This document shows positions 14,606 through 52,752 of a stretch of 64,000 bases of DNA, in pieces. Both the position numbers and the translations under genes were made by a program. Under the pieces are notes generated by a model. The model was given only the letters and a program-made list of their open reading frames with translations, was not told the DNA's origin and did no database searches. The stretch is from positions 2,067,586 to 2,131,585 of the forward strand of contig NZ_KI911557.1 in the NCBI RefSeq assembly GCF_000515215.1, in the 5' to 3' direction. This stretch comes from Methylomonas sp. 11b (GTDB taxonomy: Bacteria > Pseudomonadota > Gammaproteobacteria > Methylococcales > Methylomonadaceae). Every line of letters begins with the position of its first letter. The stretch's first letter is position 1.

Positions 14606-15085
14606 ATGATGCAAGACTATCAAACCCAAAAACCCACCGTGTTGGAAATACTGAACACTCATCAAGCAATGCCGGGTAATCTGTTGCCTATTTTGCATGG
14701 TATTCAGGACACTCTGGGCTACATCCCGCCGGCCGCCGTAGTAGACATTGCCAAGTCGCTCAATCTTTCCCAAGCGGAAGTCCACGGGGTTATTAGTTTT
14801 TATCATTACTTTCGGGAGACTCCGCCCGGAGAGCACACAATACGAATTTGTCGGGCCGAATCATGCCAAGCAATGAACGGTAAAGCGCTGGAAACCCATG
14901 TTAAACAACAGCTTGGCATCGACTTTCACGAAACCACAGCTGACGGAATTTTTTCACTAGAACCTGTTTATTGTTTAGGTAACTGCGCTTGTTCGCCATC
15001 AATTACCATAGACGACGAGGTGATGGGTCGCGTCACAACTGAAAAATTTGATCGTTTGCTAGCCACTTATAAAGGTGCCAAATAA
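14606..15085 (+). CDS. fdsG: NAD-dependent formate dehydrogenase gamma subunit
   Basis: The 159-residue protein is a NuoE-like thioredoxin-fold subunit. The four cysteines of the 2Fe-2S cluster are visible as CRAESC and, about 37 residues later, CLGNCAC. It relays electrons within the soluble FdsGBA complex that oxidises formate to CO2 with NAD+, the last energy-yielding step of methane oxidation in methanotrophs. It opens the operon fdsG-fdsB-fdsA-fdhD-fdsD. The stop overlaps the fdsB ATG by one base. An alternative ATG follows immediately (14609). The 190 bases upstream, back to the Fur box, should contain the promoter. Confidence 0.93.
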   Translation: MMQDYQTQKPTVLEILNTHQAMPGNLLPILHGIQDTLGYIPPAAVVDIAKSLNLSQAEVHGVISFYHYFRETPPGEHTIRICRAESCQAMNGKALETHVKQQLGIDFHETTADGIFSLEPVYCLGNCACSPSITIDDEVMGRVTTEKFDRLLATYKGAK

Positions 15086-16629
15086 TGACACGCGTATTTA
15101 TTTCCCGTGATTCCACCGCACTTTCCCTGGGTGCTGAACAAGTTGCCAAGGCATTGGAACAGCAAGCTAGCAGCAAAGGCTTATCAGCTGAAATCGTCCG
15201 CAACGGCTCTCGCGGATTGTTCTGGCTGGAGCCCCTCGTCGAAGTCGAAACCAGCCAAGGCAGAGTTGCCTATGGCCCCGTGCAAGTGGAAGATGTGGCA
15301 CCTTTACTCGATGCCGGGCTGCTGGATGGCAAGCAACATCCGCTTTATTTAGGCAACATTGAAGAAATAGCTTATTTCAAAAATCAAAATCGTCTTACCT
15401 TCGCCCGCGTCGGCCTAACAGACCCGGTCAACATCGACGACTACTTGGCTCACGATGGATACCGTGGCCTGAAAAATGCGTTGGCTTTGCAAGCCACCGA
15501 AATCGTCAAACAGGTCACTGACTCGGGCCTGCGTGGTCGTGGCGGCGCCGCGTTTCCGACCGGCATCAAATGGAACACAGTGCTAAACGCCCCGGCAGAT
15601 CAAAAATACATTGTCTGTAACGCTGATGAAGGCGACTCTGGTACATTTTCCGACAGAATGATCATGGAAGGCGACCCCTTCGTTTTGATCGAAGGCATGA
15701 CCATAGCCGGCCTCGCGGTGGGAGCTACTCAAGGTTATATCTATCTGCGCGTCGAATACCCACACGCTAAGATTGCGCTGAATCAAGCTATCGAAGCGGC
15801 GTACAAAAACGGTTATTTGGGCGAAAACATCCAAAACAGCGGAAAAACGTTCCACCTGGAAGTACGCAGCGGCGCCGGAGCCTATATTTGCGGCGAAGAA
15901 ACTTCCCTGTTGGAAAGCCTGGAAGGTAAACGTGGATTGGTACGTTTTAAGCCACCACTCCCCGCTATCGTCGGCCTGTTCGGTAAACCTACCATCGTCA
16001 ACAATGTCATTTCGCTGGCCTCGATTCCTGTGATTCTGGACAAAGGCGGCGAATATTATAAAAACTACGGCATGGGCCGTTCACGCGGTACGCTACCTCT
16101 GCAACTGGCTGGAAATATCAAGCACCCCGGTCTGTTTGAGGTCGCTTTCGGCATGACCTTGCGCGAGCTGCTTTACGATTACGGCGGCGGCTCAGCGAGC
16201 GGCCGACCGATACGCGCGGTACAGGTCGGCGGACCGCTGGGCGCTTATTTGCATGAGAGCCAGTTCGATACACCGCTGGATTACGAAGCCTTCGCGGCCA
16301 TTTCAGCGGTATTGGGTCATGGCGGCATAGTGGTTCATGACGATACCGTCAACATGGCCGACATGGCGCGTTATGCAATGGAATTTTGTGTGGAAGAATC
16401 CTGCGGCAAATGCACACCTTGCCGGATAGGATCAACACGTGGCGTCGAAGTAATAGACCGTATCGTCGAGGGCGTGCAAAAGGATAAAAACACCGTGTTG
16501 TTGCGCGATTTATGCGACACCATGACTTACGGATCTTTGTGTGCAATGGGCGGCATGACACCTTTCCCGGTGTTAAGCGCGCTGAATCATTTCCCTGAAG
16601 ACTTTGGCTTACAATCCGCCAAAGCCTGA
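15085..16629 (+). CDS. fdsB: NAD-dependent formate dehydrogenase beta subunit
   Basis: The 514-residue subunit is NuoF-like with an N-terminal thioredoxin-like extension of about 120 residues, as in FdsB and HoxF. GLRGRGGAAFPTG near residue 150 and NADEGDSGTFSDR bind FMN and NAD. GAGAYICGEETSLLESLEG is the conserved NuoF block. ESCGKCTPCR near residue 437, with a later cysteine in RDLCDTM, binds a 4Fe-4S cluster. It passes electrons from the FdsA clusters to NAD+. The next gene starts 22 bases downstream with an AGGAG site in the gap. Confidence 0.95.
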   Translation: MTRVFISRDSTALSLGAEQVAKALEQQASSKGLSAEIVRNGSRGLFWLEPLVEVETSQGRVAYGPVQVEDVAPLLDAGLLDGKQHPLYLGNIEEIAYFKNQNRLTFARVGLTDPVNIDDYLAHDGYRGLKNALALQATEIVKQVTDSGLRGRGGAAFPTGIKWNTVLNAPADQKYIVCNADEGDSGTFSDRMIMEGDPFVLIEGMTIAGLAVGATQGYIYLRVEYPHAKIALNQAIEAAYKNGYLGENIQNSGKTFHLEVRSGAGAYICGEETSLLESLEGKRGLVRFKPPLPAIVGLFGKPTIVNNVISLASIPVILDKGGEYYKNYGMGRSRGTLPLQLAGNIKHPGLFEVAFGMTLRELLYDYGGGSASGRPIRAVQVGGPLGAYLHESQFDTPLDYEAFAAISAVLGHGGIVVHDDTVNMADMARYAMEFCVEESCGKCTPCRIGSTRGVEVIDRIVEGVQKDKNTVLLRDLCDTMTYGSLCAMGGMTPFPVLSALNHFPEDFGLQSAKA

Positions 16630-16651
16630 TCGCGATTACCAGGAGATAAAC

Positions 16652-19504
16652 ATGTCTGACAATAACGAAATAGATTACGGAACTCCCGCAAGTTCGTCTG
16701 CAAATCAAGTCACTCTGGAAATCGACGGCCACAAGGTCACTGTCAATGCCGGCAGTTCCGTGATGCGCGCCGCCGCCGAAGCGGGGATCAGCATTCCTAA
16801 ATTGTGCGCCACCGATAGCCTGGATCCGTTCGGTTCTTGTCGGATGTGCCTGGTGCAAATCGAAGGTGCGCGCGGCTATCCGGCTTCCTGTACTACCCCG
16901 GTGGCAGAAGGCATGAAGGTATGTACCCAGAACGACAAGCTAGCCAGCATCAGACGCGGCATTGCCGAACTATACATCTCCGATCATCCTTTAGACTGTT
17001 TAACCTGCGCCGCCAACGGCGATTGCGAATTGCAGGATACCGTCGGCCAAGTCGGCTTGCGCGAAGTGCGTTACGGTTTCGACGGCGAGAATCATCTGGA
17101 TTCCGAAAAAGACACCAGCAACCCCTATTTCAGCTTCGACCCGGCAAAATGTATCGTTTGTTCACGATGCGTCCGTGCCTGCGAAGAGGTACAAGGTACC
17201 TTCGCATTGACCATCGACGGCCGCGGCTTCGATTCCAAAGTCTCTCCAGGGCAAAATCAGCCATTCATGGAATCCGAATGCGTATCCTGCGGCGCTTGCG
17301 TGCAAGCCTGCCCCACCGCGACACTGATGGAAAAATCGGTAATCGACCACGGTGTTCCGGAACATAGCACCATCACCACCTGCGCCTATTGCGGTGTCGG
17401 TTGCTCATTCAAAGCCGAAATGAAAGGCGAACAACTGGTACGCATGGTGCCGGATAAAAACGGCCAAGCCAATCACGGCCACTCTTGCGTCAAAGGCCGA
17501 TTTGCATTCGGTTATGCCACGCACAAAGACCGTATCACCACCCCTATGGTACGGGAAAACATTTCCGATCCTTGGCGCGAAGTCAGTTGGGAAGAAGCGA
17601 TCAGTTTTGCCGCCACCAAATTGAAGGGGATCCAAGCCAAATACGGCAAAGACTCAATCGGCGGCATTACCTCTTCGCGTTGCACTAACGAAGAAACCTA
17701 TCTGGTGCAAAAATTAATCCGTGCCGGCTTCGGTAACAACAATGTCGATACCTGTGCCCGCGTTTGCCATTCGCCGACCGGCTACGGCTTGAAAAGCACT
17801 TTTGGCGAATCATCCGGCACCCAAACCTTTGACTCGGTGATGCAGTCCGATGTGATTATGGTAATCGGCGCCAATCCGACTGACGGCCACCCGGTTTTCG
17901 GTTCGATGATGAAACGCCGCTTACGCCAAGGCGCGAAACTGATCGTGGTCGATCCGCGCAGTATCGATTTGGTTAGCAATAGCCCACATGTGAAAGCCGA
18001 CTACCATCTGAAACTTCGCCCCGGCACCAATGTTGCGGTTGTCACCGCATTGGCTCACGTCATTGTCACCGAAGGCTTGGCGGATGAAAAATTCGCACTG
18101 GAACGCTGCGATATTGAGTCGTTCAATAAATGGAAAACCTTTGTTGCGCTGCCCCAACATTCACCTGAGGCCGTCGCCGAATTAACCGGCGTACCCGCCG
18201 AAACCATGCGCGCAGCGGCTCGCTTGTACGCAACGGGCGGTAATGGCGCGATCTATTACGGCTTGGGTGTGACCGAACATAGCCAAGGTTCAACAACAGT
18301 TATCGGTATCGCTAATCTGGCAATGGCAACCGGTAACATTGGCCGCGATGGGGTTGGCGTCAACCCGCTACGCGGACAAAACAATGTCCAAGGCTCTTGC
18401 GATATGGGTTCGTTCCCGCACGAGTTTGTCGGCTACCGCCATGTTTCCGACTCGCAAACTCGCGTTCAGTTTGAAACTGCTTGGAACGTGGCGCTGTCCT
18501 CAGAACCCGGCTTACGTATCCCGAATATGTTTGCCGCCGCTATCGACGGTAGTTTCAAAGGCTTGTACGTACAAGGCGAAGACATCGCTCAATCCGATCC
18601 TGATATCACCCACGTACATCACGCGCTACGTGAATTGGAATGCTTGGTCGTACAAGACATTTTCCTGAACGAAACCGCTAAATTTGCTCACGTGTTTTTA
18701 CCAGGCTCCTCGTTCCTGGAAAAGAACGGCACGTTTACCAATGCTGAACGCCGGATTTCGCCGGTTCGTAAAGTGATGACCCCGCTGGGTGGCAAGGAAG
18801 ACTGGGAAGTAACCCAGGATTTGTCGAACGCCCTGGGTTATCCGATGAATTACAGCCATCCTTCGGAAATCATGGCCGAAATCGCGGCGCTGACACCGCA
18901 ATTCGCCGGTGTCAGTTACGAAAAAATCGACGAAATGGGCAGCATACAGTGGCCTTGCAATGACGAAACACCCGATGGCACGCCGATTATGCACGCCGAC
19001 CACTTCGTGCGCGGTAAAGGCCGCTTCATGCTAACCGAATATGTCGCTACCGAAGAACGTACCAGCAGCAAATATCCGTTGATTCTGACTACCGGCCGGA
19101 TCTTGTCGCAATACAACGTCGGTGCCCAAACTCGCCGCACGGAAAACGTCGCCTGGCACGAGGAAGATCGTCTGGAATTGCATCCACACGATGCTGAAGT
19201 ACTGGGTATTAGCGATGGCGACTGGTGCGGCGTGAAAAGCCGTTCCGGGGAAACCGTGTTGCGCGCTTTGATTACTGATCGCATGCAGCCTGGCGTGGTT
19301 TACACCACGTTCCATTTCCCACATTCAGGCGCTAACGTCATCACCACCGATAACTCGGACTGGGCAACCAACTGTCCGGAATACAAAGTCACCGCTGTAC
19401 ATGTCGCCAAAGTTGCACAAACTTCGGCATGGCAACAGGAATACCAAGACTTTTCCGACAATCAGTTGTCTCTACTGGAAAACCGCATCGCGGTCAACGA
19501 GTAA
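16652..19504 (+). CDS. fdsA: NAD-dependent formate dehydrogenase alpha (molybdenum) subunit
   Basis: Start ATG 16652 is chosen because AGGAGATAAAC precedes it; the frame is open 16 codons further. The 950-residue catalytic subunit has an N-terminal 2Fe-2S ferredoxin domain (CATDSLDPFGSCRMC), a His-ligated 4Fe-4S site (HPLDCLTCAANGDC), two ferredoxin-type clusters (CIVCSRCVRAC, CVSCGACVQAC), the FDH cluster motif CAYCGVGC, and the molybdopterin domain. CARVCHSPTG places the metal-ligating cysteine at about residue 372, so this is a cysteine rather than a selenocysteine enzyme. Molybdenum or tungsten bis-MGD is expected. Confidence 0.95.
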   Translation: MSDNNEIDYGTPASSSANQVTLEIDGHKVTVNAGSSVMRAAAEAGISIPKLCATDSLDPFGSCRMCLVQIEGARGYPASCTTPVAEGMKVCTQNDKLASIRRGIAELYISDHPLDCLTCAANGDCELQDTVGQVGLREVRYGFDGENHLDSEKDTSNPYFSFDPAKCIVCSRCVRACEEVQGTFALTIDGRGFDSKVSPGQNQPFMESECVSCGACVQACPTATLMEKSVIDHGVPEHSTITTCAYCGVGCSFKAEMKGEQLVRMVPDKNGQANHGHSCVKGRFAFGYATHKDRITTPMVRENISDPWREVSWEEAISFAATKLKGIQAKYGKDSIGGITSSRCTNEETYLVQKLIRAGFGNNNVDTCARVCHSPTGYGLKSTFGESSGTQTFDSVMQSDVIMVIGANPTDGHPVFGSMMKRRLRQGAKLIVVDPRSIDLVSNSPHVKADYHLKLRPGTNVAVVTALAHVIVTEGLADEKFALERCDIESFNKWKTFVALPQHSPEAVAELTGVPAETMRAAARLYATGGNGAIYYGLGVTEHSQGSTTVIGIANLAMATGNIGRDGVGVNPLRGQNNVQGSCDMGSFPHEFVGYRHVSDSQTRVQFETAWNVALSSEPGLRIPNMFAAAIDGSFKGLYVQGEDIAQSDPDITHVHHALRELECLVVQDIFLNETAKFAHVFLPGSSFLEKNGTFTNAERRISPVRKVMTPLGGKEDWEVTQDLSNALGYPMNYSHPSEIMAEIAALTPQFAGVSYEKIDEMGSIQWPCNDETPDGTPIMHADHFVRGKGRFMLTEYVATEERTSSKYPLILTTGRILSQYNVGAQTRRTENVAWHEEDRLELHPHDAEVLGISDGDWCGVKSRSGETVLRALITDRMQPGVVYTTFHFPHSGANVITTDNSDWATNCPEYKVTAVHVAKVAQTSAWQQEYQDFSDNQLSLLENRIAVNE

Positions 19505-19518
19505 GTAGCAACCGCCTT

Positions 19519-20358
19519 ATGGATGCAGTCTCAAGCGAACTGGGCTGGACCAGCTATCGAACCGGTACGTTCGATAGCTGGCGCGGCCCAGTTCACACCG
19601 CGAAAGAGGATTATGTCGCTGAAGAAGTGCCGGTGGTGTTGGTTTACAACACCATTCCGCACGTGGTGATGCTGACGACCCCTCTCAATCTAGAAGATTT
19701 TGCATTGGGCTTCAGTCTGACCGAAGAAATCATCGGCCATACGTCGGAATTGCAGTCGGTACGCGTCGTACAACGCTCCAAAGGAGTGGAAGTTAGAATG
19801 ACGATTCCTGAAAAGCGTTTTGAGAAACTGCACGGCAAGGGAAAAAACATGACCGGCAGAACCGGTTGCGGTTTGTGCGGAGCCACCACCCTGGAGCAAG
19901 CCATTCGGCGTCCCCATCATGTGGGGCAAGGTTTAGCGCTGAATGCAGCGCTATTAAGCAGCGGTTTCGCCGATATGGCGCAAAAGCAATCTCTGAATAT
20001 GCTGACCGGTGCGGTCCATGCGGCAGCGTGGCTGCACCCGGAACGCGGCATCGTTACTGTAAGGGAAGATGTCGGCCGTCATAATGCACTGGATAAACTG
20101 ATCGGTTCATTAGCCAAGGCCAACTGCGATTTTGAAAATGGCTGGCTGCTGGTGACCAGCCGCGCCAGTTATGAAATGGTACAAAAAGCGGCCAGTGTTG
20201 GCATCACCTTGCTGGCAGCCATCTCGGCACCTACCGCGTTAGCAATTCAATTGGCGGAAGAGTGCGGACTGACCCTGGTTGGCTTCGCCCGCCACGAAAA
20301 TCATATGATCTACACTCACCCTCATCGTTTACAACATTACCAAGAATCAGCCGCATAA
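19519..20358 (+). CDS. fdhD: Formate dehydrogenase accessory sulfurtransferase FdhD
   Basis: FdhD (FdsC) delivers sulfur from a cysteine desulfurase to the molybdenum cofactor of formate dehydrogenase. The 279-residue protein contains the persulfide-carrying TGCGLCGATTLEQ motif, GAVHAAAWL, and VREDVGRHNALDKLIG with conserved cofactor-binding residues. Start ATG 19519 lies 14 bases after fdsA; an upstream open frame would overlap fdsA and lacks homology. It precedes fdsD by only three bases, so all five genes form one transcription unit. Confidence 0.94.
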   Translation: MDAVSSELGWTSYRTGTFDSWRGPVHTAKEDYVAEEVPVVLVYNTIPHVVMLTTPLNLEDFALGFSLTEEIIGHTSELQSVRVVQRSKGVEVRMTIPEKRFEKLHGKGKNMTGRTGCGLCGATTLEQAIRRPHHVGQGLALNAALLSSGFADMAQKQSLNMLTGAVHAAAWLHPERGIVTVREDVGRHNALDKLIGSLAKANCDFENGWLLVTSRASYEMVQKAASVGITLLAAISAPTALAIQLAEECGLTLVGFARHENHMIYTHPHRLQHYQESAA

Positions 20359-42530: not shown

Positions 42531-43367
42531 CTAACAGTCACCGGCAGGCATCAGTGCAGCCAGGATTACGGCATTGCTCTTAAATACCGCTGCCGCATTG
42601 ACGCCTGGTTTTAGCGCAAGAACCTCGGCACTCGCTTGAGTAATAGTCGCGGCAATAGTTTCGCCGCTGGGTAGCTGGATGATCACTTCAGAATCCACTC
42701 CATCAAAATGAATGCGAATCACGCGGCCAGCCAGACGATTCCGCGCCGAAAACAGATGCAATCCACCATCATCAGCCAATACCAAAATGTCCGGCGCATT
42801 GACCAGCACCACTGCGTCGCCGCCTACCTTAAGCTCCAAGTTTACAAGCGTTGCCAGCGGCACGCTGGCAACTACTTGCTCTCCACCCTTCAAAGACACA
42901 AACACTTCGGCGTTTACCGAACCAGAGTTGATCCTGGCAATCGTTCCGGACAGCTGGTTTCTGGCACTGGTTTTGATCACCTGTCGTTTCAACAAAAGCA
43001 TTACATCCGGATCGTCGATCAAGCTTTGATTCAGTTGCTGCAAAAGGGCGCGATGCTGATCCTCTAGGCGGGTGAATAACTTCAGTAAGGATAAACCCGC
43101 CGCTGTTAGCGTGGTCCCCCCGCCCTTGCTGCCACCCGTCGCAGTGGCTATTAAAACCTTGGGAGCCAAATTATTTGCCCGCTCTATCATTTGCCATGCG
43201 CCCTTGTAACTTAATCCGGCCTGCTTGGCCGCTTGATTGATCGAACCGCTTTGTTCTATTGCCCGTAGCAAGCTAATCATGCGATTGTCCAATATGCCGG
43301 CTAGGCGTAATTCGCCTTCAAGCCAAGGAGGCTCTGGTCTGTTTGGATTTTTCTCTGCTGTAGACAT
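42531..43367 (-). CDS. modE: Molybdate-responsive transcriptional regulator ModE
   Basis: The 278-residue protein has a LysR-type winged helix (about 20-110: LLRAIEQSGSINQAAKQAGLSYKGAWQMIERAN) and two TOBE/Mop molybdate-binding domains in tandem, starting TSARNQLSGTIARI (about 131) and FSARNRLAGRVIRI (about 205). This is the architecture of E. coli ModE, which binds DNA when loaded with molybdate. A matching 24-bp operator lies in the divergent intergenic region at 43465-43488, so it probably represses the porin-modA-molbindin-modC arm. Confidence 0.94.
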   Translation of the reverse strand: MSTAEKNPNRPEPPWLEGELRLAGILDNRMISLLRAIEQSGSINQAAKQAGLSYKGAWQMIERANNLAPKVLIATATGGSKGGGTTLTAAGLSLLKLFTRLEDQHRALLQQLNQSLIDDPDVMLLLKRQVIKTSARNQLSGTIARINSGSVNAEVFVSLKGGEQVVASVPLATLVNLELKVGGDAVVLVNAPDILVLADDGGLHLFSARNRLAGRVIRIHFDGVDSEVIIQLPSGETIAATITQASAEVLALKPGVNAAAVFKSNAVILAALMPAGDC

Positions 43368-43464: not shown

Positions 43465-43488
43465 CGTTATTTACTTTCGTACATAACG
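43465..43488. promoter_or_regulatory. ModE operator
   Basis: CGTTAT-N12-ATAACG matches the spacing and ends of the E. coli modA ModE site, and the repeat extends to TTTTCGTTAT/ATAACGAAAA. It overlaps a plausible sigma-70 promoter (TTGTTT at 43457-43462, 17 bases, TACATA at 43480-43485) reading towards the porin gene. Confidence 0.85.
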
Positions 43489-43600: not shown

Positions 43601-45097
43601 ATGGCCCCCAAAAACCGTTATCGCAAAGCATCTTTTCTCACGGCACTGAGTGCGATCACAGCGAATAATCTTTACATTGACGCTAGCGAGGCCGCGGAAA
43701 ATAAAACCTACAGCAAGCCACCCATGGCCGCCTTTTCCAGTCAGATGCCGGATGCCCTGCTGGGCAACGATAAATTCGAAAAGCCGGTCTGGAATCTACA
43801 TGACACGCTGAATTTGCCAAAGTGGCTATCCGCCTCACTGGAACAGCGCACCCGCTATGAGACTATGGACGGCAGCTTTAAAGCCAACGGCAGAGGCGGC
43901 GATCAACAGATTGCCTTGCAAACCGATTTGTGGCTGCAAGCCAATCTGGGCAAGTTAAGGCTCGGTACCGAGTTTCTGGATGCCCGCGCGCTGGGCGCCG
44001 ATAGCGGTTCCGGCGTAAATAACACCCACGCCGACACTGCGGACTTCATTCAAGGTTACGCCGCGTGGGCAGATCAAAATCTGTTTTACAGCGGTATCGG
44101 CGCTGAAATTGTGGCCGGCCGGCAAACGCTAAATCTGGGCAGTCGCCGCTTAATTGCCCGCAATGCGATGCGCAACGATATCAACAGCTTTACCGGAATA
44201 AAGCTGAGGCTGTTGGACTACGATTCTTGGCAATTTACCGGCTTTGTGACCATGCCGGTCAACCGCTATCCGACCGCCGCTGCGGACATTCTGAACGAGG
44301 TCCACGAGTTCGACGAGGAAGATACCCACACTTGGTTTTCCGGCGGGTTCTTGGAGCTTTACAACTTGGCCTGGAATATCAATAGCGAAGTTTATCTATA
44401 CCATCTCGACGAAGGCGACAGCATCCGCAATCCCACCCGGAATCGCCGCTACTTCACACCCGGCGTGCGCTTTTATCTGAAGCCCAAGAAGGCCAATTTC
44501 GACTTTCAAACCGAAACCATCGGCCAGCTAGGCACCGTCCGTTCCAGTACTGCCGCCAGCAATGGCCGCGATTTGGAGCACGCCGCCTGGTACCAGCACG
44601 CCGATGTCGGCTATACCTTCGACGCCCCTTGGTCTCCGCGTTTCGCGTTGGAATACGACTATGCCAGCGGGGATGAAAACCCTAACAACAATCAAGACCA
44701 GCGCTTCGACACCTTGTACGGTGCCCGACGCTTCGAGTTCGGCGCGACCGGTATGTATGGCGCGTTCGCCCGCAGCAATATCAGTACGCCCGGCTACCGC
44801 ATCGCTGCCGCGCCGCGCAACGATGTGCAGCTTGGACTGAGTCACCGTTTTTATTGGCTGGCATCGGACAGAGACAGTTGGACCACGGCCAGTTTGCAAG
44901 ATACCGGCGGTCGGAGCGGTGATTTCGTCGGTCAACAATTGGAATTGACCGCGCGTTGGGATTTTAACAGCAGTTTGAATTTCGAAACCGGCTGGGCGCA
45001 TTTGTTCAAGGGCGAATTTGCAAAAAGAGCGCCGTCGGCACCGACTATTAAAGACGACGTCGATTATGTTTACGTGCAGAGCCAATTACGGTTTTAG
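43601..45097 (+). CDS. Outer-membrane porin, alginate-export family
   Basis: The 498-residue protein has a signal peptide-like N-terminus and the alginate-export beta-barrel domain: LSASLEQRTRYETMDG, TDLWLQANLGKLRLGTEF, VAGRQTLNLGSRRLIARN, and a terminal aromatic strand ending QLRF for Bam-dependent insertion. Family members are channels for anionic polymers or small solutes. Here it sits 113 bases downstream of a ModE operator and 36 bases upstream of modA, so passage of molybdate or other oxyanions through the outer membrane is a reasonable inference. No alginate genes are nearby. Confidence 0.85.
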   Translation: MAPKNRYRKASFLTALSAITANNLYIDASEAAENKTYSKPPMAAFSSQMPDALLGNDKFEKPVWNLHDTLNLPKWLSASLEQRTRYETMDGSFKANGRGGDQQIALQTDLWLQANLGKLRLGTEFLDARALGADSGSGVNNTHADTADFIQGYAAWADQNLFYSGIGAEIVAGRQTLNLGSRRLIARNAMRNDINSFTGIKLRLLDYDSWQFTGFVTMPVNRYPTAAADILNEVHEFDEEDTHTWFSGGFLELYNLAWNINSEVYLYHLDEGDSIRNPTRNRRYFTPGVRFYLKPKKANFDFQTETIGQLGTVRSSTAASNGRDLEHAAWYQHADVGYTFDAPWSPRFALEYDYASGDENPNNNQDQRFDTLYGARRFEFGATGMYGAFARSNISTPGYRIAAAPRNDVQLGLSHRFYWLASDRDSWTTASLQDTGGRSGDFVGQQLELTARWDFNSSLNFETGWAHLFKGEFAKRAPSAPTIKDDVDYVYVQSQLRF

Positions 45098-45133: not shown

Positions 45134-45901
45134 ATGTCGTTTATCGCTTTAAATCGGATAATTTTAGCTTTATCGCTTTTGTCGAGCGCGTTTGCGCAGG
45201 CCGAGACTACGCTGGTTGCGGTCGCCGCCAACTTTACCAAACCCATGACCGAGATCGCTGAGGCGTTCGAGAAAGCTAGCGGCCATAGTGCCAAGCTGTC
45301 GTTCGGTTCGTCCGGCAAATTCGTCGCCCAATTTGAGAACGGGGCACCGTTTGAAGTGTTTTTATCGGCTGACGATAAAAGCCCGTTAAAACTGGAGCAA
45401 TCAGGTTTGGCCGTGGCCGGTAGCCGGTTTACCTATGCCATCGGCAAATTGGTACTGTGGTCCGGCAACCCCGGCTATGTCGACGAGCAAGGCAAAATCT
45501 TGAGCAAGGGCGACTTCAAGCATCTGGCCTTGGCGGACCCTAAACTGGCGCCCTACGGTGCGGCGGCGGTGGAGGTCCTGAAAAACCAAGGCCTATTGGA
45601 AAAACTGCAACCTTTGTTCGTACAAGGCGAAAACATCGCTCAAACTCATCAATTTGTCAGTACCGGCAATGCCGAACTGGGTTTTGTGGCCTTATCGCAA
45701 GTGATCAACAACGGCAAAGTCGGCGCGGGCTCCGGCTGGATCGTGCCGGAAAACCTGCATAGCCCGATCCTGCAAGACGCGGTATTGCTGAAAACCGGTG
45801 CCGAAAATCCGGCCGCGCAAGCTTTGCTGGCTTTTCTGAAAACGCCGCCGGCTTTGGCCATCATAGAAAAATATGGCTATGCCTTACCCGCAGCAAATTA
45901 A
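45134..45901 (+). CDS. modA: Molybdate-binding periplasmic protein ModA
   Basis: The 255-residue protein has a signal peptide (about 1-22, ending SAFAQA) and the ModA fold: VAAANFTKPMTEIAEAFEKASG, SFGSSGKFVAQFENGAPFEVFLSADD, and later ADPKLAPYGAAA. The Ser and Thr/Gly positions that hydrogen-bond the tetrahedral oxyanion are present in FGSSGK and LSADD. AGGAGAAATAGC precedes the ATG. A molbindin gene, not modB, comes next. Confidence 0.94.
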   Translation: MSFIALNRIILALSLLSSAFAQAETTLVAVAANFTKPMTEIAEAFEKASGHSAKLSFGSSGKFVAQFENGAPFEVFLSADDKSPLKLEQSGLAVAGSRFTYAIGKLVLWSGNPGYVDEQGKILSKGDFKHLALADPKLAPYGAAAVEVLKNQGLLEKLQPLFVQGENIAQTHQFVSTGNAELGFVALSQVINNGKVGAGSGWIVPENLHSPILQDAVLLKTGAENPAAQALLAFLKTPPALAIIEKYGYALPAAN

Positions 45902-46442: not shown

Positions 46443-47624
46443 ATGCTGCTGGAAATGAATGTCAAACTGCGTCGCGGTCATTTCGACCTCAGCACGCAAT
46501 TATCGGTCGGCGACATCAGCGTCGGCCTGTTCGGACAATCCGGCGCAGGTAAAAGCACCTTACTGGGGCTGATCGCCGGCACCATCCAGCCGCAAAGCGG
46601 ACATATTGCGCTGGACGGCAAAATCTTGTTCGATAGCCGTAAAGGTATCGTGATGCCGCGCGAACAACGGCCGATAGGCGCGGTATTGCAGAGCGATTGC
46701 GCCGACGCCACGGAAACCGTGCGCGACAATCTAACCGCCGCCTATTACCGCACCCTCAAACAGCGCCGACTGTTCAAACCGGACTATTTAATCAATTTAC
46801 TGGAACTGGGCGCCAATCTGGATCAGCCTATCGAACGGTTATCGGTTGGTGAACGCCAGCGGGTGGCGCTGGCCCGTTCGCTGCTGAAATCGCCGAAGTT
46901 GTTATTGCTTGACGAGACTTTCGCCGCCATCGGCCACGGTTACCGTTCGCAACTACTACCGATTTTGAAACGCCTGCAAGACGAATTCGGTTTGCCGGCA
47001 CTGTATGCCAGCCAGTCGCTGGGCGAAATTCTGGAATTGACCGACCAGTTGATTGTGCTGGAACACGGCCAGGTGCTGCGCAGCGGCTCTTTGCGCGAAG
47101 TGGCTAAACAACAAGGTATCTTGCGCTATCTGGGTATCCGCCAAATCGACAACATCCTGCCGATCAGTATTCGCAATCACGATGTCCAGGCAGGTTGCAG
47201 TATGGCGGATAGTTTCGGTCTGCCGCTGGCCTTGCCGCTACGCCCGCAGTTTGCAATCGGCAGCCAGAGCCAGGTATCGATCCGCGCCAACGACATCGCC
47301 CTGTCTCGGGCCTACATCGACGGCATCTCCATTCAGAATCAGCTAAAAGGCCGGATCTGCGCAATCATCCCTAGCGGCGAAAGCCTGATCGTGCAAGTCG
47401 ATTGTGGTGGGACCTTATTGGTGGAAATTACGCCGGGGGCCTGCCAGAGTATGGCGTTGCGGGAAGGCGACGTGGTGTATTGCCTGATTAAAACTCACGC
47501 CATCGTCTATCTGGCCGAACTGGACACCCTACCCTACCAACGCATCGTCAGCCACGGTGACGGCTACTACTATTTGAACCATGCCGGCGCCGACACCAGC
47601 CGTGTTTTGGAATACCGTTACTGA
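46443..47624 (+). CDS. modC: ModC-like molybdate ABC ATPase with altered catalytic motifs
   Basis: Start ATG 46443 with CCGGAGG just before it. The 393-residue protein has a ModC-type ATPase domain and a C-terminal TOBE domain (QNQLKGRICAI). Walker A GQSGAGKST (31-39) and signature LSVGERQ (133-139) are intact, and Walker B ends LLLLDE (153-158). The following residues are TFAAIG instead of the usual PLASLD (D-loop aspartate lost). The switch histidine of YVSHSLDE is glutamine (YASQSLGE, residue 191). No modB permease lies in the operon. It may be a transport ATPase of reduced activity, or repurposed. Confidence 0.88.
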   Translation: MLLEMNVKLRRGHFDLSTQLSVGDISVGLFGQSGAGKSTLLGLIAGTIQPQSGHIALDGKILFDSRKGIVMPREQRPIGAVLQSDCADATETVRDNLTAAYYRTLKQRRLFKPDYLINLLELGANLDQPIERLSVGERQRVALARSLLKSPKLLLLDETFAAIGHGYRSQLLPILKRLQDEFGLPALYASQSLGEILELTDQLIVLEHGQVLRSGSLREVAKQQGILRYLGIRQIDNILPISIRNHDVQAGCSMADSFGLPLALPLRPQFAIGSQSQVSIRANDIALSRAYIDGISIQNQLKGRICAIIPSGESLIVQVDCGGTLLVEITPGACQSMALREGDVVYCLIKTHAIVYLAELDTLPYQRIVSHGDGYYYLNHAGADTSRVLEYRY

Positions 47625-48687: not shown

Positions 48688-50475
48688 TTATTTAGTCACT
48701 TGTATACTGACAACGCCTGAATTACCCGATGTATCCGTTGCAATCACTTTGATAACATGGTTGCCTGCTGAGATTTTTTTGGCGTTCCAGTTATAACTCA
48801 AACTACTGCTGGTCGTGGAAGCAACCAACTTCGTATCGATATAAATCTGCACCTTGGCAACTGCGACATTATCTTTTGCCGCAACAGAAACCGCGACCAA
48901 ACCACTGACTTTAGCGCCGTTCACTGGGGTAGAAATATTAACCGTGGGTGCGATCAAATCAGCAGTGGCTGTATTGCCAGTAGTGCCGCCGGTAGCATTT
49001 TGATTCTGTACGCTGACAGTCACGACAGCAGATGAACCAGTATTTCCAGCCGAATCGATTGCGGCAGCAGTTAAGCTAACGTTGCCATTGGCTAGACTAC
49101 CGGTATCCCAACTAAATTGATAAGGCGCGACACCGTCGGTTCCGACCAGCTTGCCATTGGCAAACAGCGAGACTTGGCTGACGGACACATTATCACTAGC
49201 GGACACCGCTACAGAGGCCAATCCACTAACCACACTACCGGCACTTGGCGACGTAATAACCGCTGTCGGTGCCTGAGTATCCACCGAAATGGTATTGATA
49301 GCTGTCTTTATTGCATTAGCCGCGTTGATTCGCCCATAGCCGTAGTTCAAGTCAAAATTAACACCGGACACCTTATCGGCAGAACTTTTCAATATTTTCT
49401 CGACATTGTCAGGCGTAAGTTTCGGATTCGCCGCCTGAATCAGTGCGACAACACCAGCGGCAACAGGAGTGGCGAGCGAAGTACCGTACCAAGCAGCATA
49501 AGTGCCGCCTTTATTGGTCGTCGCGATGGATACGCCCGGTGCGGCAACATCAATGTATTTACCGAAATTCGAGAAGCTTGCTTTCACATCGTTAGTATCT
49601 GTAGCGGAAACAGCAATCAGATTTACGCTATCTGCAAGCCCAGGGTCCAAACCATCATTGCCGGCAGCCACCAATACCAAACCGCCTTTACTGCGCATGT
49701 ATTGGGCAGCTGAAGCTACCGTGGCGCTATCGCTTGCGGCGTAGCTAAGGTTAGCGACGTCGGCACCATTATCTGCGGCCCAGTTCAAGCCTCGTGCTAC
49801 GTCACTCCAATATGCATAACCACTGGCATCATTGGTAATTCTGATCGGCATGATTTTGGCGTTCCACGCTACGCCTGCCACACCACTGGCATTGTTGGTA
49901 ACAGCAGCGGCGGCACCCGCTACGGCGGTACCATGTCCATTGACATCAGCAGTGACCGAACCACTATCTACCGCATTCCAGCCAGGCACCATATGTGCCG
50001 CTAAATCGGGATGTGAACCATCCACCCCGCTATCAAGAATGGCAATGGTAATTCCATCTGCTTTTGATACATCCCATGCGTTAGGGCTCTGAATTTTTGA
50101 TAGATGCCAAGCATTGGCAAACTGTGGATCGTTGGGAACCGCACTTAGTGGCACAGCCATATCCAATTCAGCAAACTCGATATGGGGATTTTTTGACAAG
50201 GCTCGCACCACAGCAGCCTCAGCATTTTCAGGGACATTAATGATATGAATAGCCGAACTACCGATTTTTTCAGCAATACCACTGCCATTGAAACGTAGAA
50301 TTTTTTTAAACTCGGCGTCAGGCAATCCAGCTTTGGGCTGGACTAATATCTGTCCGAATTTCCAAGCTTTGCCGGCCGGCAAATTGGTTGCAGTATTAGA
50401 AAATGCTTGCCCATAAACGAATCCAGCAGGCAAACTGAACAAACTTACAACCACAATCTCCTTAACTCTAAGCAT
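48688..50475 (-). CDS. Secreted S8 (subtilisin-like) serine protease with Ig-like domains
   Basis: The 595-residue protein has a signal peptide (1-23), an inhibitor-type propeptide (about 37-110, GQILVQPKAGLPDAEF) and a subtilase domain. The catalytic residues are Asp148 (ILDSGVDG), His181 (NGHGTAVAG) and Ser333 (GTSLATPVAAG), with oxyanion Asn273 (AAGNDG). Two bacterial Ig-like domains follow, each starting APT-x-V...SP or NG and containing DN(V)-x-V-x-V. It is a paralogue of the gene at 50707-52524, so a local duplication is likely. The extracellular substrate is unknown. Confidence 0.92.
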   Translation of the reverse strand: MLRVKEIVVVSLFSLPAGFVYGQAFSNTATNLPAGKAWKFGQILVQPKAGLPDAEFKKILRFNGSGIAEKIGSSAIHIINVPENAEAAVVRALSKNPHIEFAELDMAVPLSAVPNDPQFANAWHLSKIQSPNAWDVSKADGITIAILDSGVDGSHPDLAAHMVPGWNAVDSGSVTADVNGHGTAVAGAAAAVTNNASGVAGVAWNAKIMPIRITNDASGYAYWSDVARGLNWAADNGADVANLSYAASDSATVASAAQYMRSKGGLVLVAAGNDGLDPGLADSVNLIAVSATDTNDVKASFSNFGKYIDVAAPGVSIATTNKGGTYAAWYGTSLATPVAAGVVALIQAANPKLTPDNVEKILKSSADKVSGVNFDLNYGYGRINAANAIKTAINTISVDTQAPTAVITSPSAGSVVSGLASVAVSASDNVSVSQVSLFANGKLVGTDGVAPYQFSWDTGSLANGNVSLTAAAIDSAGNTGSSAVVTVSVQNQNATGGTTGNTATADLIAPTVNISTPVNGAKVSGLVAVSVAAKDNVAVAKVQIYIDTKLVASTTSSSLSYNWNAKKISAGNHVIKVIATDTSGNSGVVSIQVTK

Positions 50476-50618
50476 GACAATCCCGTCTATCGAACAAAAG
50501 GCTTATTGTAAGATGCTCAGGCCGCATACTTTATTAAGAACACATTAAATCCCCTGGGGATCATTTGCGAATAGCCCAACCAGGATTAACCCGTTTCTTT
50601 GTTTATGCCGACTCACAC

Positions 50619-50648
50619 AAAAAAAACAGGGGCGAAATACGCCCCTGT
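50619..50648 (-). terminator. Rho-independent terminator after the second S8 protease gene
   Basis: On the minus strand ACAGGGGC and GCCCCTGT form an 8-bp stem with a 7-base loop, followed by eight T residues. Confidence 0.88.
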
Positions 50649-50706
50649 CTTAATTGCCTTTGAAATACCGCCGACAATATTGTTGGCAGTTTTCCAGATA
50701 CGAACG

Positions 50707-52524
50707 CTACTTGCTGACTAGAATGCTGACGGTACCGGTTTTATTGGAGGTATCGGTGGCAACCGCTTTGATCGAATGGCTGCCGGCAGCCACTTTCTTG
50801 ACATTCCAGCTATAGCTCAAGGTTTTGCTGGTTGTAGAAGACACCAGCTTGTTGTCGATATAAAGCTGTACCTTAGCGACAGCAATATCGTCATTAGCAG
50901 CTGCGGCGATATTCACTACGCTTCCACTCACTTTCGCACCATTTGTTGGGTTAGAAATGGTCACGGTTGGAGCCGCTTGATCCGTGGTGGTTACCGTGGT
51001 TTGATTTTGTACGTTCACAGTCACGGCGCTTGATGAGCCTTGGTTTCCGGAAGAGTCAGTAGCCACCGCAGTTAAATTTATATTGCCGTTTGCCACAGTC
51101 GTGGAATCCCAACTGAATGTGTAAGGAGCAGTGCCATCTGTTCCGACCAATTTACCGCCTGCGTAAAATGAAACCTGGCTTACGGCGACATTATCGTTAG
51201 CGTTAACGGCGACAGAGGTTAAACCACTTACCACAGAACCAGCAGCTGGAGATGAAATGGCAGCGGTCGGCGCCAGAGTATCTCTAGCCACTGTATTGAG
51301 CGCTAATTGCACAGCGGCGTTAGCATTGATACGTCCATAGCCATAGTTTGGATCAAAATTAACACCGGATACTTTATCGGCAGAATCTTTTAGCACCTTT
51401 TCGACATCCGCAGGCGCCAAGTTGGGATTTGCAGCTTGAATCAACGCCACTACACCCGCGGTAACCGGACTAGAAAATGAGGTCCCGTTCCAATTGGCAT
51501 ATCCGCCACCTCTCAGAAGCGTGGCAATAGAAGTGCCGGGAGCTGCGACATCAATAAAGGCGCCATAGTTGGACCAACTGGCCTTCACATCATTCCAATC
51601 GGTTGCTGAAACAGAAATCATGTAGGGGTTATCGGTATAACCGGGATCTACTCCGTCGTTGGCGCCTGCAACAACCACTATTCCGCCTTTGGAATTCATA
51701 TACTGGGCCGCCGATGACACCGCCGAGCTACCACTCACCCCATAACTGATATTTGCGACATCGGCACCATTGTCAGCCGCCCAACTCAGGCCACGCGCAA
51801 CGTCACTCCAGTAAGCGTATCCCGTTGAATCGTTGGTAATTCTGACGGGCATAACTTTCGCGTTCCACGCCACGCCAGCAACCCCTACTGAGTTATCGGT
51901 GACAGCAGCTGCTGTACCGGCAACCGCAGTACCATGACCATTGATGTCGGTAGTGTCGGAGCCTCCATCCACCGCATTCCACCCCGGAATCATATGATTT
52001 GCCAAATCCGGATGCGAACCATCAACACCACTATCCAAGACGGCTATTGTAATGCCGTCCGCTTTGGAAACATCCCATGCGCCAGGCGTTTGAATTTTTG
52101 CTAAATGCCACGCACCACCAAAGTTTGGATCATTTGGGGTGGTAGTACTCATAGGCTGAGCCATGTCTAACTCAGCGAACTCGATATGGGGGTTTTTTGA
52201 TAGCGCCCGTACCACCGCTTCTTCCGCTTGCTCAGGGACGCTAACGATATGAACCGGCAAATTACCGATTTTTTCACTGCTTTTACCTTGATTGCCACGC
52301 AGAATTTTCTCAAATTCCGCATCAGCCAAACCGGCATTGGGCTTAACTAAAATTTGCCCTGGTTTCCAGGTCTTAGCGACGTTACCAGCCGAGGCGGGCA
52401 ACTGCTGCATATCCCGATTTATTTGCAAAATTTCCTGGTCTAGCAAATATTTATCGAGATAAATGATTACAGGCACTGCCAGTAGTGCAACACCTAAAGT
52501 GATGTACAAATTTTTTTTGTTCAT
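50707..52524 (-). CDS. S8 (subtilisin-like) serine protease with N-terminal anchor and Ig-like domains
   Basis: Start ATG 52524 has GGGGGACAGTC before it. The 605-residue protein begins MNKKNLYITLGVALLAV, an uncleaved anchor or signal helix, followed by a propeptide (GQILVKPNAGLADAEF) and a subtilase domain with Asp164 (VLDSGVDG), His197 (NGHGTAVAG), Asn289 (AGANDG) and Ser349 (GTSFSSPVTAG). Two Ig-like repeats end the protein. It is very similar to the downstream paralogue; the main difference is the N-terminal anchor. Terminators separate the genes, so each is probably expressed on its own. Confidence 0.92.
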   Translation of the reverse strand: MNKKNLYITLGVALLAVPVIIYLDKYLLDQEILQINRDMQQLPASAGNVAKTWKPGQILVKPNAGLADAEFEKILRGNQGKSSEKIGNLPVHIVSVPEQAEEAVVRALSKNPHIEFAELDMAQPMSTTTPNDPNFGGAWHLAKIQTPGAWDVSKADGITIAVLDSGVDGSHPDLANHMIPGWNAVDGGSDTTDINGHGTAVAGTAAAVTDNSVGVAGVAWNAKVMPVRITNDSTGYAYWSDVARGLSWAADNGADVANISYGVSGSSAVSSAAQYMNSKGGIVVVAGANDGVDPGYTDNPYMISVSATDWNDVKASWSNYGAFIDVAAPGTSIATLLRGGGYANWNGTSFSSPVTAGVVALIQAANPNLAPADVEKVLKDSADKVSGVNFDPNYGYGRINANAAVQLALNTVARDTLAPTAAISSPAAGSVVSGLTSVAVNANDNVAVSQVSFYAGGKLVGTDGTAPYTFSWDSTTVANGNINLTAVATDSSGNQGSSSAVTVNVQNQTTVTTTDQAAPTVTISNPTNGAKVSGSVVNIAAAANDDIAVAKVQLYIDNKLVSSTTSKTLSYSWNVKKVAAGSHSIKAVATDTSNKTGTVSILVSK

Positions 52525-52752
52525 GACTGTCCCCCTGGTTTTTGTTTTGAATGTCCAAATCTTAAACACCTCATCCTTGGCTTCATGCCATGAGGCTTTC
52601 TGAACGCAAGCTAATTTGAATTTTCCGAATCAGCTTTCTGCTTGGAAGGAAGTCTAAAAAAACTGGGCCACCATTACTGTGACTTTACTTTCAGAATCAC
52701 CATAACAACAATGGGGTAACACCTATTGCTATAGCTACCAGACAATTTCTGG

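Follow-up and report, generated by a model that had tools for sequence, protein, structure and literature searches.

An orphan ModC paralogue with a degenerate ATPase domain and a well-kept TOBE domain in a molybdenum operon of Methylomonas

What does the ATPase of a molybdate importer do in an operon that holds no permease? This question is raised by the last gene of a molybdenum operon in Methylomonas sp. 11b. The operon lies within a stretch of 64,000 nucleotides (contig NZ_KI911557.1, positions 2,067,586 to 2,131,585), in the following called the window; the genome itself is a single contig of 5.41 Mb. An earlier note, made from the letters of the window alone, had described the order porin-modA-molbindin-modC with a tandem-TOBE molbindin, and this order was found again; 36, 56 and 56 bases separate the successive frames. 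The terminal gene encodes a ModC paralogue that we name ModCx (orphan ModC). The operon and the relevant parts of the protein are:

42531..43367, minus strand: modE-like regulator with HTH and two Mop domains, divergent from the porin operon
43465..43488, strand not assigned: palindrome CGTTAT-N12-ATAACG resembling a ModE box, in the gap that separates the modE-like gene from the porin operon
43601..45097, plus strand: porin of the outer membrane (Alginate_exp family), with which the operon begins
45134..45901, plus strand: modA, the sole modA-model match of the genome
45958..46386, plus strand: molbindin, tandem Mop/TOBE; in 31 of 43 loci of other genomes, a relative is the gene immediately before modCx
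46443..47624, plus strand: modCx, 393 amino acids, degenerate ATPase domain and TOBE domain
46533..46559, plus strand: Walker A GQSGAGKST, residues 31-39; Lys37 is present in 56 of 56 orphans
46689..46718, plus strand: Gln83 and the next segment, residues 83-92; the L-F-P-H found here in permease-linked ModC is lost in ModCx and in 56 of 56 orphans
46899..46934, plus strand: Walker B, Glu158 and the degenerate D-loop A-A-I-G164, residues 153-164
47013..47015, plus strand: Gln191 at the position of the switch histidine
47310..47507, plus strand: TOBE domain, residues 290-355, with SIQNQ, KGRIC, VQVDCG and Lys350; the best conserved part

The frame is intact over all 393 residues. Walker A, the Walker B stretch LLLLD with Glu158 and the signature LSVGE (residues 133-137) are kept, and Gln191 and AAIG occur where the earlier note had placed them. 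Where the canonical ModC of the same genome reads P-L-A-S-L-D, ModCx reads T-F-A-A-I-G164, and Gln191 replaces the histidine of the canonical protein. With 261.1 bits ModCx stays below the cut-off of 285.05 of the NCBIfam modC model TIGR02142. Its C-terminus matches PF03459 (TOBE) at residues 296-351, and Pfam gave no DNA-binding domain in the protein. The L-F-P-H segment after the Q-loop is what we take to be the permease-docking segment of ModC; most domain functions of the proteins discussed are given as general background. The next gene of the window after modCx is a convergent HAD-like gene. Further downstream, at 48688-52569, two tandem and similar subtilisin-like protease genes were recognised by eye, with relatives at the matching place in five loci (L067-L071). 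Candidate subunits of a Mo-dependent NAD formate dehydrogenase together with FdhD, likewise assigned by eye, are found at 15085-20358 and would represent a second molybdenum user in the window.

In agreement with the earlier note, the window contains no modB; the six matches of the genome to the modB model (E ≤ 0.001) are all located outside. The whole-genome search located a modB (237 bits, over the cut-off) and a canonical modC (432 bits) together at G000:C1:2492601-2494333, about 380 kb from modCx, the two genes overlapping each other. No modA accompanies this pair (L007:6593-8367), and the only modA-model match of the genome is that of the window, so that the pump is encoded in two pieces. 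A pump-less genome is thus rejected, as modB, canonical modC and modA are all present. A ModE-box-like site (at least 8 of 10 bases) was not found within 300 bp upstream of the distant modB; of the co-regulated modB elsewhere that had been considered as a refutation, the gene exists, but no site in this range points to its co-regulation. Since the distant pair has neither an adjacent modA nor such a site, separate regulation of the two halves of the pump is possible.

Some relatives have all of these genes in a single run, modA-modB-modC-mop-modCx, in which modB again comes with a modC of its own. The porin directly precedes this run in L054, L059, L078, L080 and L092, a TauE-like gene lies between porin and modA in L057, L072 and L076, and in L056 the run is cut by the contig end ahead of the porin. 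The lineage of the window (L067-L071) has porin-modA-mop-modCx. The arrangement in relatives, together with the modB and canonical modC elsewhere in the genome, identifies ModCx as an extra gene and not as modC itself. A recent duplication of the genome's own modC is rejected, as in the tree ModCx stands with type-2 ModC and at a great distance from type 1. The Alginate_exp porin also heads the mod operon in several relatives and is a candidate outer-membrane molybdate channel.

The unusual residues are not peculiar to this genome. Among ModCx and the best 120 of 6905 matches, Gly164 is invariant (121 of 121) and Gln191 occurs in 120 of 121 proteins, whereas Glu158 is replaced by Asp in 25 of them; an isolated substitution, which the earlier note had left as an option for Gln191, or a sequencing error is thereby rejected. 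The closest named protein among the matches listed belongs to Methylomonas sp. Kb3 (97% identical). Of the 201 family genomes, 43 have a ModCx in a search with the protein of the window (E ≤ 1e-90); divergent orphans present in G120 and G164, also of the family, are not included in this count. The 42 genomes besides the window's own yielded 43 loci, with two from G121 and several cut by contig ends. Of the 311 genomes of the order, 92 were positive in a profile search at E ≤ 1e-85, which also picked up more divergent relatives; the weaker group of the 92 was sampled through 20 fetched stretches. The profile search of 369 genomes of the class had three positives, namely the own genome, G234 (same order, orphan) and G522, whose match is an intact, modB-linked ModC. 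At the cut-offs used the orphan clade is seen in the order of the window only, which shows the reach of the sampling rather than absence elsewhere. A scan of named genomes returned at least 80 loci, mostly distant ABC ATPases, three of which (L151-L153) were examined. In a plasmid search the best match was an orphan on a plasmid of Methylococcus sp. EFPC2, lower matches being generic ABC and ModC proteins. This motif-broken orphan ModC-like gene (L130, G224:C2) is carried by the 89.6 kb plasmid NZ_CP070492.1. It is preceded by an FAD-oxidoreductase-like gene, as are the orphan genes of L127 and L134 (domain-scanned in L127 only). The f4 group of genomes presumably corresponds to Methylococcaceae.

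For a comparison of motifs 86 proteins were aligned, 56 orphans and 30 other ModCs. The latter comprise 10 of type 2 and 20 of type 1 (19 from fetched loci, one from the window's own genome), and modB lies beside 29 of the 30 (10/10 type 2, 19/20 type 1, the remaining one being at a contig end). All 56 orphans form one clade with a support of 100/99 beside type-2 ModC, in a tree for which the program warned of long branches (X_L059 and Y_L144 among them) and false joins with Y_L144 are possible. Glu158, Asp164 and His191 occur together in 30/30 other ModCs, which also all have Gln83, and in none of the 56 orphans. Position 164 of the orphans is occupied by Gly (48), Asp (5), Glu (2) or Pro (1), position 191 by Gln (39), His (12), Ser (2), Arg, Tyr or Pro (1 each), and position 158 by Glu (32) or Asp (24). 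The Walker A Lys and the Walker B Asp are present in 56/56; the Q-loop Gln83 is lost in five, and the signature Gly136 is kept in 47, with further decay of Q-loop and signature in L151 and in the f4 orphans. Different branches have lost different catalytic parts, as would be expected once hydrolysis no longer matters. Slow hydrolysis is possible, since Glu158 is kept in 32 orphans.

The earlier note had read the loss of His and Asp as a sign of possibly low activity. Every orphan lacks the full E/D/H set; the histidine, however, is kept in 12/56, and its loss is rejected as the defining mark of the group. Gln191 alone is weak evidence of inactivity, since according to the accessible part of PMC7756269 the H-loop Gln mutant in NBS2 of ABCC1 (MRP1) retained wild-type-like transport.

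The segment following the Q-loop also separates the two groups. Phe88 is present in 30/30 other ModCs and in 0/56 orphans. All four residues of L87-F88-P89-H90 are found in 28/30 other ModCs, and two or more of them in 0/56 orphans; a lone Pro89 occurs in eight orphans, the five f4 orphans included. By alignment, the catalytic set and the docking L-F-P-H are thus gone from every orphan compared, while the nucleotide-binding motifs are kept.

The opposite trend was observed for the C-terminal domain. Entropies and identities were calculated after removal of one truncated ModC and two near-duplicates, which left 55 orphans and 28 other ModCs. For residues 84-92 the mean entropy amounts to 2.24 bits in orphans and 0.69 bits in true ModCs, whereas the TOBE motifs show lower values in the orphans: 0.27 versus 0.76 bits for SIQNQ, 0.50 versus 1.70 bits for KGRIC and 0.28 versus 1.56 bits for VQIDCG. 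Identities follow the same pattern. Type-1 ModCs share 71.5% in the ATPase domain and 63.4% in TOBE among themselves, type-2 ModCs 60.0% and 42.1%, and the two types against each other 42.5% and just 27.1%. Within the ModCx core, 74.6% in the ATPase domain compare with 77.3% in TOBE; the values for the core against the distant subclade are 53.8% and 59.8%, against the five f4 orphans 40.0% and 55.7%, and against the L128/L139/L140 group 35.3% and 53.4%. At an ATPase-domain identity of 40-42%, TOBE identity is hence 56% between ModCx and the f4 orphans and 27-42% where a permease-linked ModC is compared. TOBE is the best-kept part in orphans; in true ModC the reverse holds and the ATPase domain is kept best.

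Of 55 orphans with a residue at the respective positions, 54 have Cys306 and 51 Cys321 in TOBE; most other ModCs differ, with Cys321 shared by 3D31. In the available text of PMC11980592 the side chains of the type-2 molybdate site are given as Ser, Lys and a second Ser. In our own reading of the alignment, the putative site of the orphans comprises Ser296 (55/56) and Lys350 (54/56), the rest being gaps in both cases, and the position of the second Ser is Ala333 in 53/56. The whole-gene dN/dS between modCx of the window and six relatives is 0.05-0.08, corresponding to purifying selection, and a pseudogene is rejected on these values. For TOBE alone, dN/dS is 0-0.02 in five pairs and 0.085 with L072, where it is no lower than in the rest of the gene.

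Gene context points towards molybdenum as well. Besides mop directly upstream, any mod gene was found in the fetched stretch of 34/43 loci and modB in 18/43, while nine loci have no mod gene in this range. The palindrome CGNTAT-N12-ATANCG, contained in the E. coli ModE consensus as quoted in the accessible part of PMC545781, occurs 35 times in 29/43 loci versus 0.5 occurrences expected by composition. Counted by hand, 29 of the 35 are no more than about 300 bp away from the start of a porin, modE, mop, modA or modCx gene; the other six are located elsewhere. The window has two, one in the modE-porin gap (43465..43488) and another at 52182, where it falls within a protease frame.

In nine orphans a ModE-box-like site with 9 or 10 of 10 bases is located 12-15 bp before the start codon. 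Six of them belong to the distant ModCx subclade, and their fetched loci contain no mod gene (10/10 bases in L062, L064 and L066, 9/10 in L060, L061 and L063, with an additional perfect box further up in L061). The other three are L141, with modE-like and MosA genes nearby, L143, and L145, with a modA-modB pair about 5 kb off; they are the only ones with a box of at least 9 bases among 11 orphans outside the first set, the other eight having none. Upstream of the five f4 orphans, which form one subclade, no box of at least 8/10 bases was detected. The control consisted of 490 upstream regions of other frames from a mechanical listing, frames beside mod genes included; 19 of them reach 9 bases, eight of these reaching 10. 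Judging from these sites, expression of modCx is probably under ModE control.

Several other neighbours were noted. A cluster of TonB receptor, phnS2-like binding protein and di-haem oxidoreductase lies beside modCx or modE in L061:1294-6002, L082:1180-5822 and L081, and in these three loci a ModE-box-like palindrome occupies the gap before the cluster, making it a candidate ModE-controlled outer-membrane uptake set. A CynR-like LysR gene follows modCx closely in L054, L057, L063, L065, L078, L080, L082 and L086, in some cases succeeded by a gene for MsrA or metal-independent formate dehydrogenase. Single loci have MosA/MosB-like genes (L053, L055), NifE (L055) or a Mo formate dehydrogenase (L064) as neighbours. 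In L137:5822-11953 and L138:1339-7602 a type-2 modA-modB-modC set is accompanied by two MoSto-like genes and an ABC ATPase (drrA-like in L137), which may amount to a different kind of Mo store equipped with a transporter of its own.

Co-occurrence across the 201 genomes of the family is in accordance with a role in molybdenum metabolism. nifD (E ≤ 1e-150) was found in 39/43 ModCx genomes versus 101/201 overall (Fisher 7e-10, shared ancestry ignored); three of the four ModCx genomes without a match are 75-79% complete, and the fourth, G190, 93%. MosA, identified by its match to 2OGX, occurs in eight of the 201 genomes, all of which are positive for ModCx and nifD (p 2.5e-6, and 3e-4 within nifD-positive genomes, shared ancestry ignored). 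Related genomes count as independent in these tests, so that the p values are too favourable. modB is present in 43/43 ModCx genomes versus 169/201 overall. Among the family genomes that belong to the window's genus, G147 and G171 have nifD without ModCx, and G189 and G195 lack both. The window's own genome gave no match to MosA/MoSto at E ≤ 1e-60, and MoSto is accordingly rejected as the partner of ModCx there.

On balance we favour a permease-free, ATP-binding but hydrolysis-impaired descendant of an importer ATPase that acts as a cytosolic sensor of molybdate and energy or as a handling factor, an assignment drawn from sequence comparison. Of the earlier proposal, a degenerate ModC of probably low activity in a molybdenum-handling setting, rather than a pump motor, is supported; the genome, however, is not pump-less, and ModCx is an extra gene. 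In the M. acetivorans ModABC importer, molybdate between the C-terminal domains of ModC blocks transport, which is known as trans-inhibition (PMC10710835, accessible part), and the TOBE-domain dimer is held necessary for binding in the available text of PMC11980592. ModCx would likewise dimerise and, as Ser296 and Lys350 suggest, bind molybdate (or tungstate) between its TOBE domains, with ATP binding and molybdate binding influencing each other as in trans-inhibition. Beside molbindin, and MoSto where present, it might then serve as cytosolic sensor or handler through which molybdenum is supplied to or spared for nitrogenase and Mo formate dehydrogenase. A more specific and tentative version is a two-input switch, in which a non-hydrolysing, membrane-free ATP-sandwich dimer moves the TOBE pair together or apart, and the ATP level would set hold or release of molybdate, feeding molbindin, MoSto and nitrogenase cofactor assembly.

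A rather unlikely alternative is that ModCx forms the degenerate half of an asymmetric importer. It would sit on ModB together with the canonical ModC, contribute its signature to a single functional ATP site and tune or dampen uptake. Degenerate sites of heterodimeric exporters, in which changes of the Walker B Glu often go with H-loop changes (PMC7756269, accessible part), would be a precedent, and the retention of Gly136 in most orphans as well as the modB found in every ModCx genome and within 18 of the fetched loci are consistent with it. The docking Phe88 is, however, absent from all orphans, five have lost the Q-loop Gln, the fetched stretches of nine loci contain no mod gene, and ModCx groups with type-2 ModC and not with type 1, its would-be partner. 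Loss of the docking segment and the orphans standing alone therefore disfavour this alternative. A still-working importer ATPase that uses the distant ModB and tolerates its substitutions is very improbable: this ModB already has an overlapping canonical modC, the D-loop Asp and the docking segment are lost in addition to the histidine, and Q-loop and signature decay further in relatives (L151, f4 orphans), which outweighs the retained Glu158 and the active H-loop Gln mutant of ABCC1 (PMC7756269, accessible part).

We also consider a mainly transcriptional role improbable, in which ModCx, for example together with the CynR-like LysR protein, would act as a co-regulator and choose between Mo-dependent and Mo-free formate dehydrogenases. 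The LysR gene, counted as one cluster, close downstream in 8/43 loci, the metal-independent formate dehydrogenase in five loci and the Mo formate dehydrogenase alpha gene near modCx in L064 would fit such a role; 8/43 are few, however, Pfam detects no DNA-binding domain in ModCx, and in the window modCx is followed by the convergent HAD-like gene. We find it hardly credible that ModCx is a remnant in the course of being lost. The catalytic motifs have decayed in differing combinations and 158/201 family genomes have no match (E ≤ 1e-90), but dN/dS of 0.05-0.08, the invariant Gly164 (121/121, ModCx and best 120 of 6905 matches) and ModE-box-like sites of its own speak against such a fate.

If the reading as sensor or handling factor is true, the motor of an importer has been freed from its pump and retained for its sensing end, and a factor reading ATP and molybdenum beside molbindin and MoSto would be a missing link from molybdate uptake to nitrogenase cofactor assembly in methanotrophs. 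If the two-input switch is true, methanotrophs throughout an order have turned a transporter motor into a metal chaperone or sensor. The name 'molybdenum ABC transporter ATP-binding protein', given to several close relatives in public records, should not be taken as evidence of a pump. In the literature searched (titles and abstract starts, with subscription journals thinly covered) no description was found of a conserved orphan family of ModC paralogues that are catalytically broken and strictly retain TOBE; this is weak evidence of novelty.

Compared with known systems, ModCx shares with ModC (TIGR02142; solved relatives 3D31 and 2ONK) the ABC ATPase domain and one C-terminal TOBE in a near full-length match. 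It differs by its score below the family cut-off, the missing permease gene of its own, the broken E/D/H set and docking segment, and a TOBE kept better than the ATPase domain. Subunits of heterodimeric ABC exporters carry membrane domains and have a dedicated partner, both of which would distinguish them from ModCx. Common to both are changes of the Walker B Glu and the H-loop, as reported for the degenerate NBS of ABCB2/B3 in the accessible part of PMC7756269. Molbindin/Mop/Tub and ModE share TOBE, the molybdate setting and the gene neighbourhood with ModCx, but have no ATPase domain (domain scan of the two proteins of the window). MoSto (MosA/MosB), the ATP-dependent molybdenum store, likewise combines ATP and molybdenum in the cytosol, and 8/8 MosA genomes carry ModCx; it belongs, however, to the amino-acid-kinase family and has a fold different from that of ModCx.
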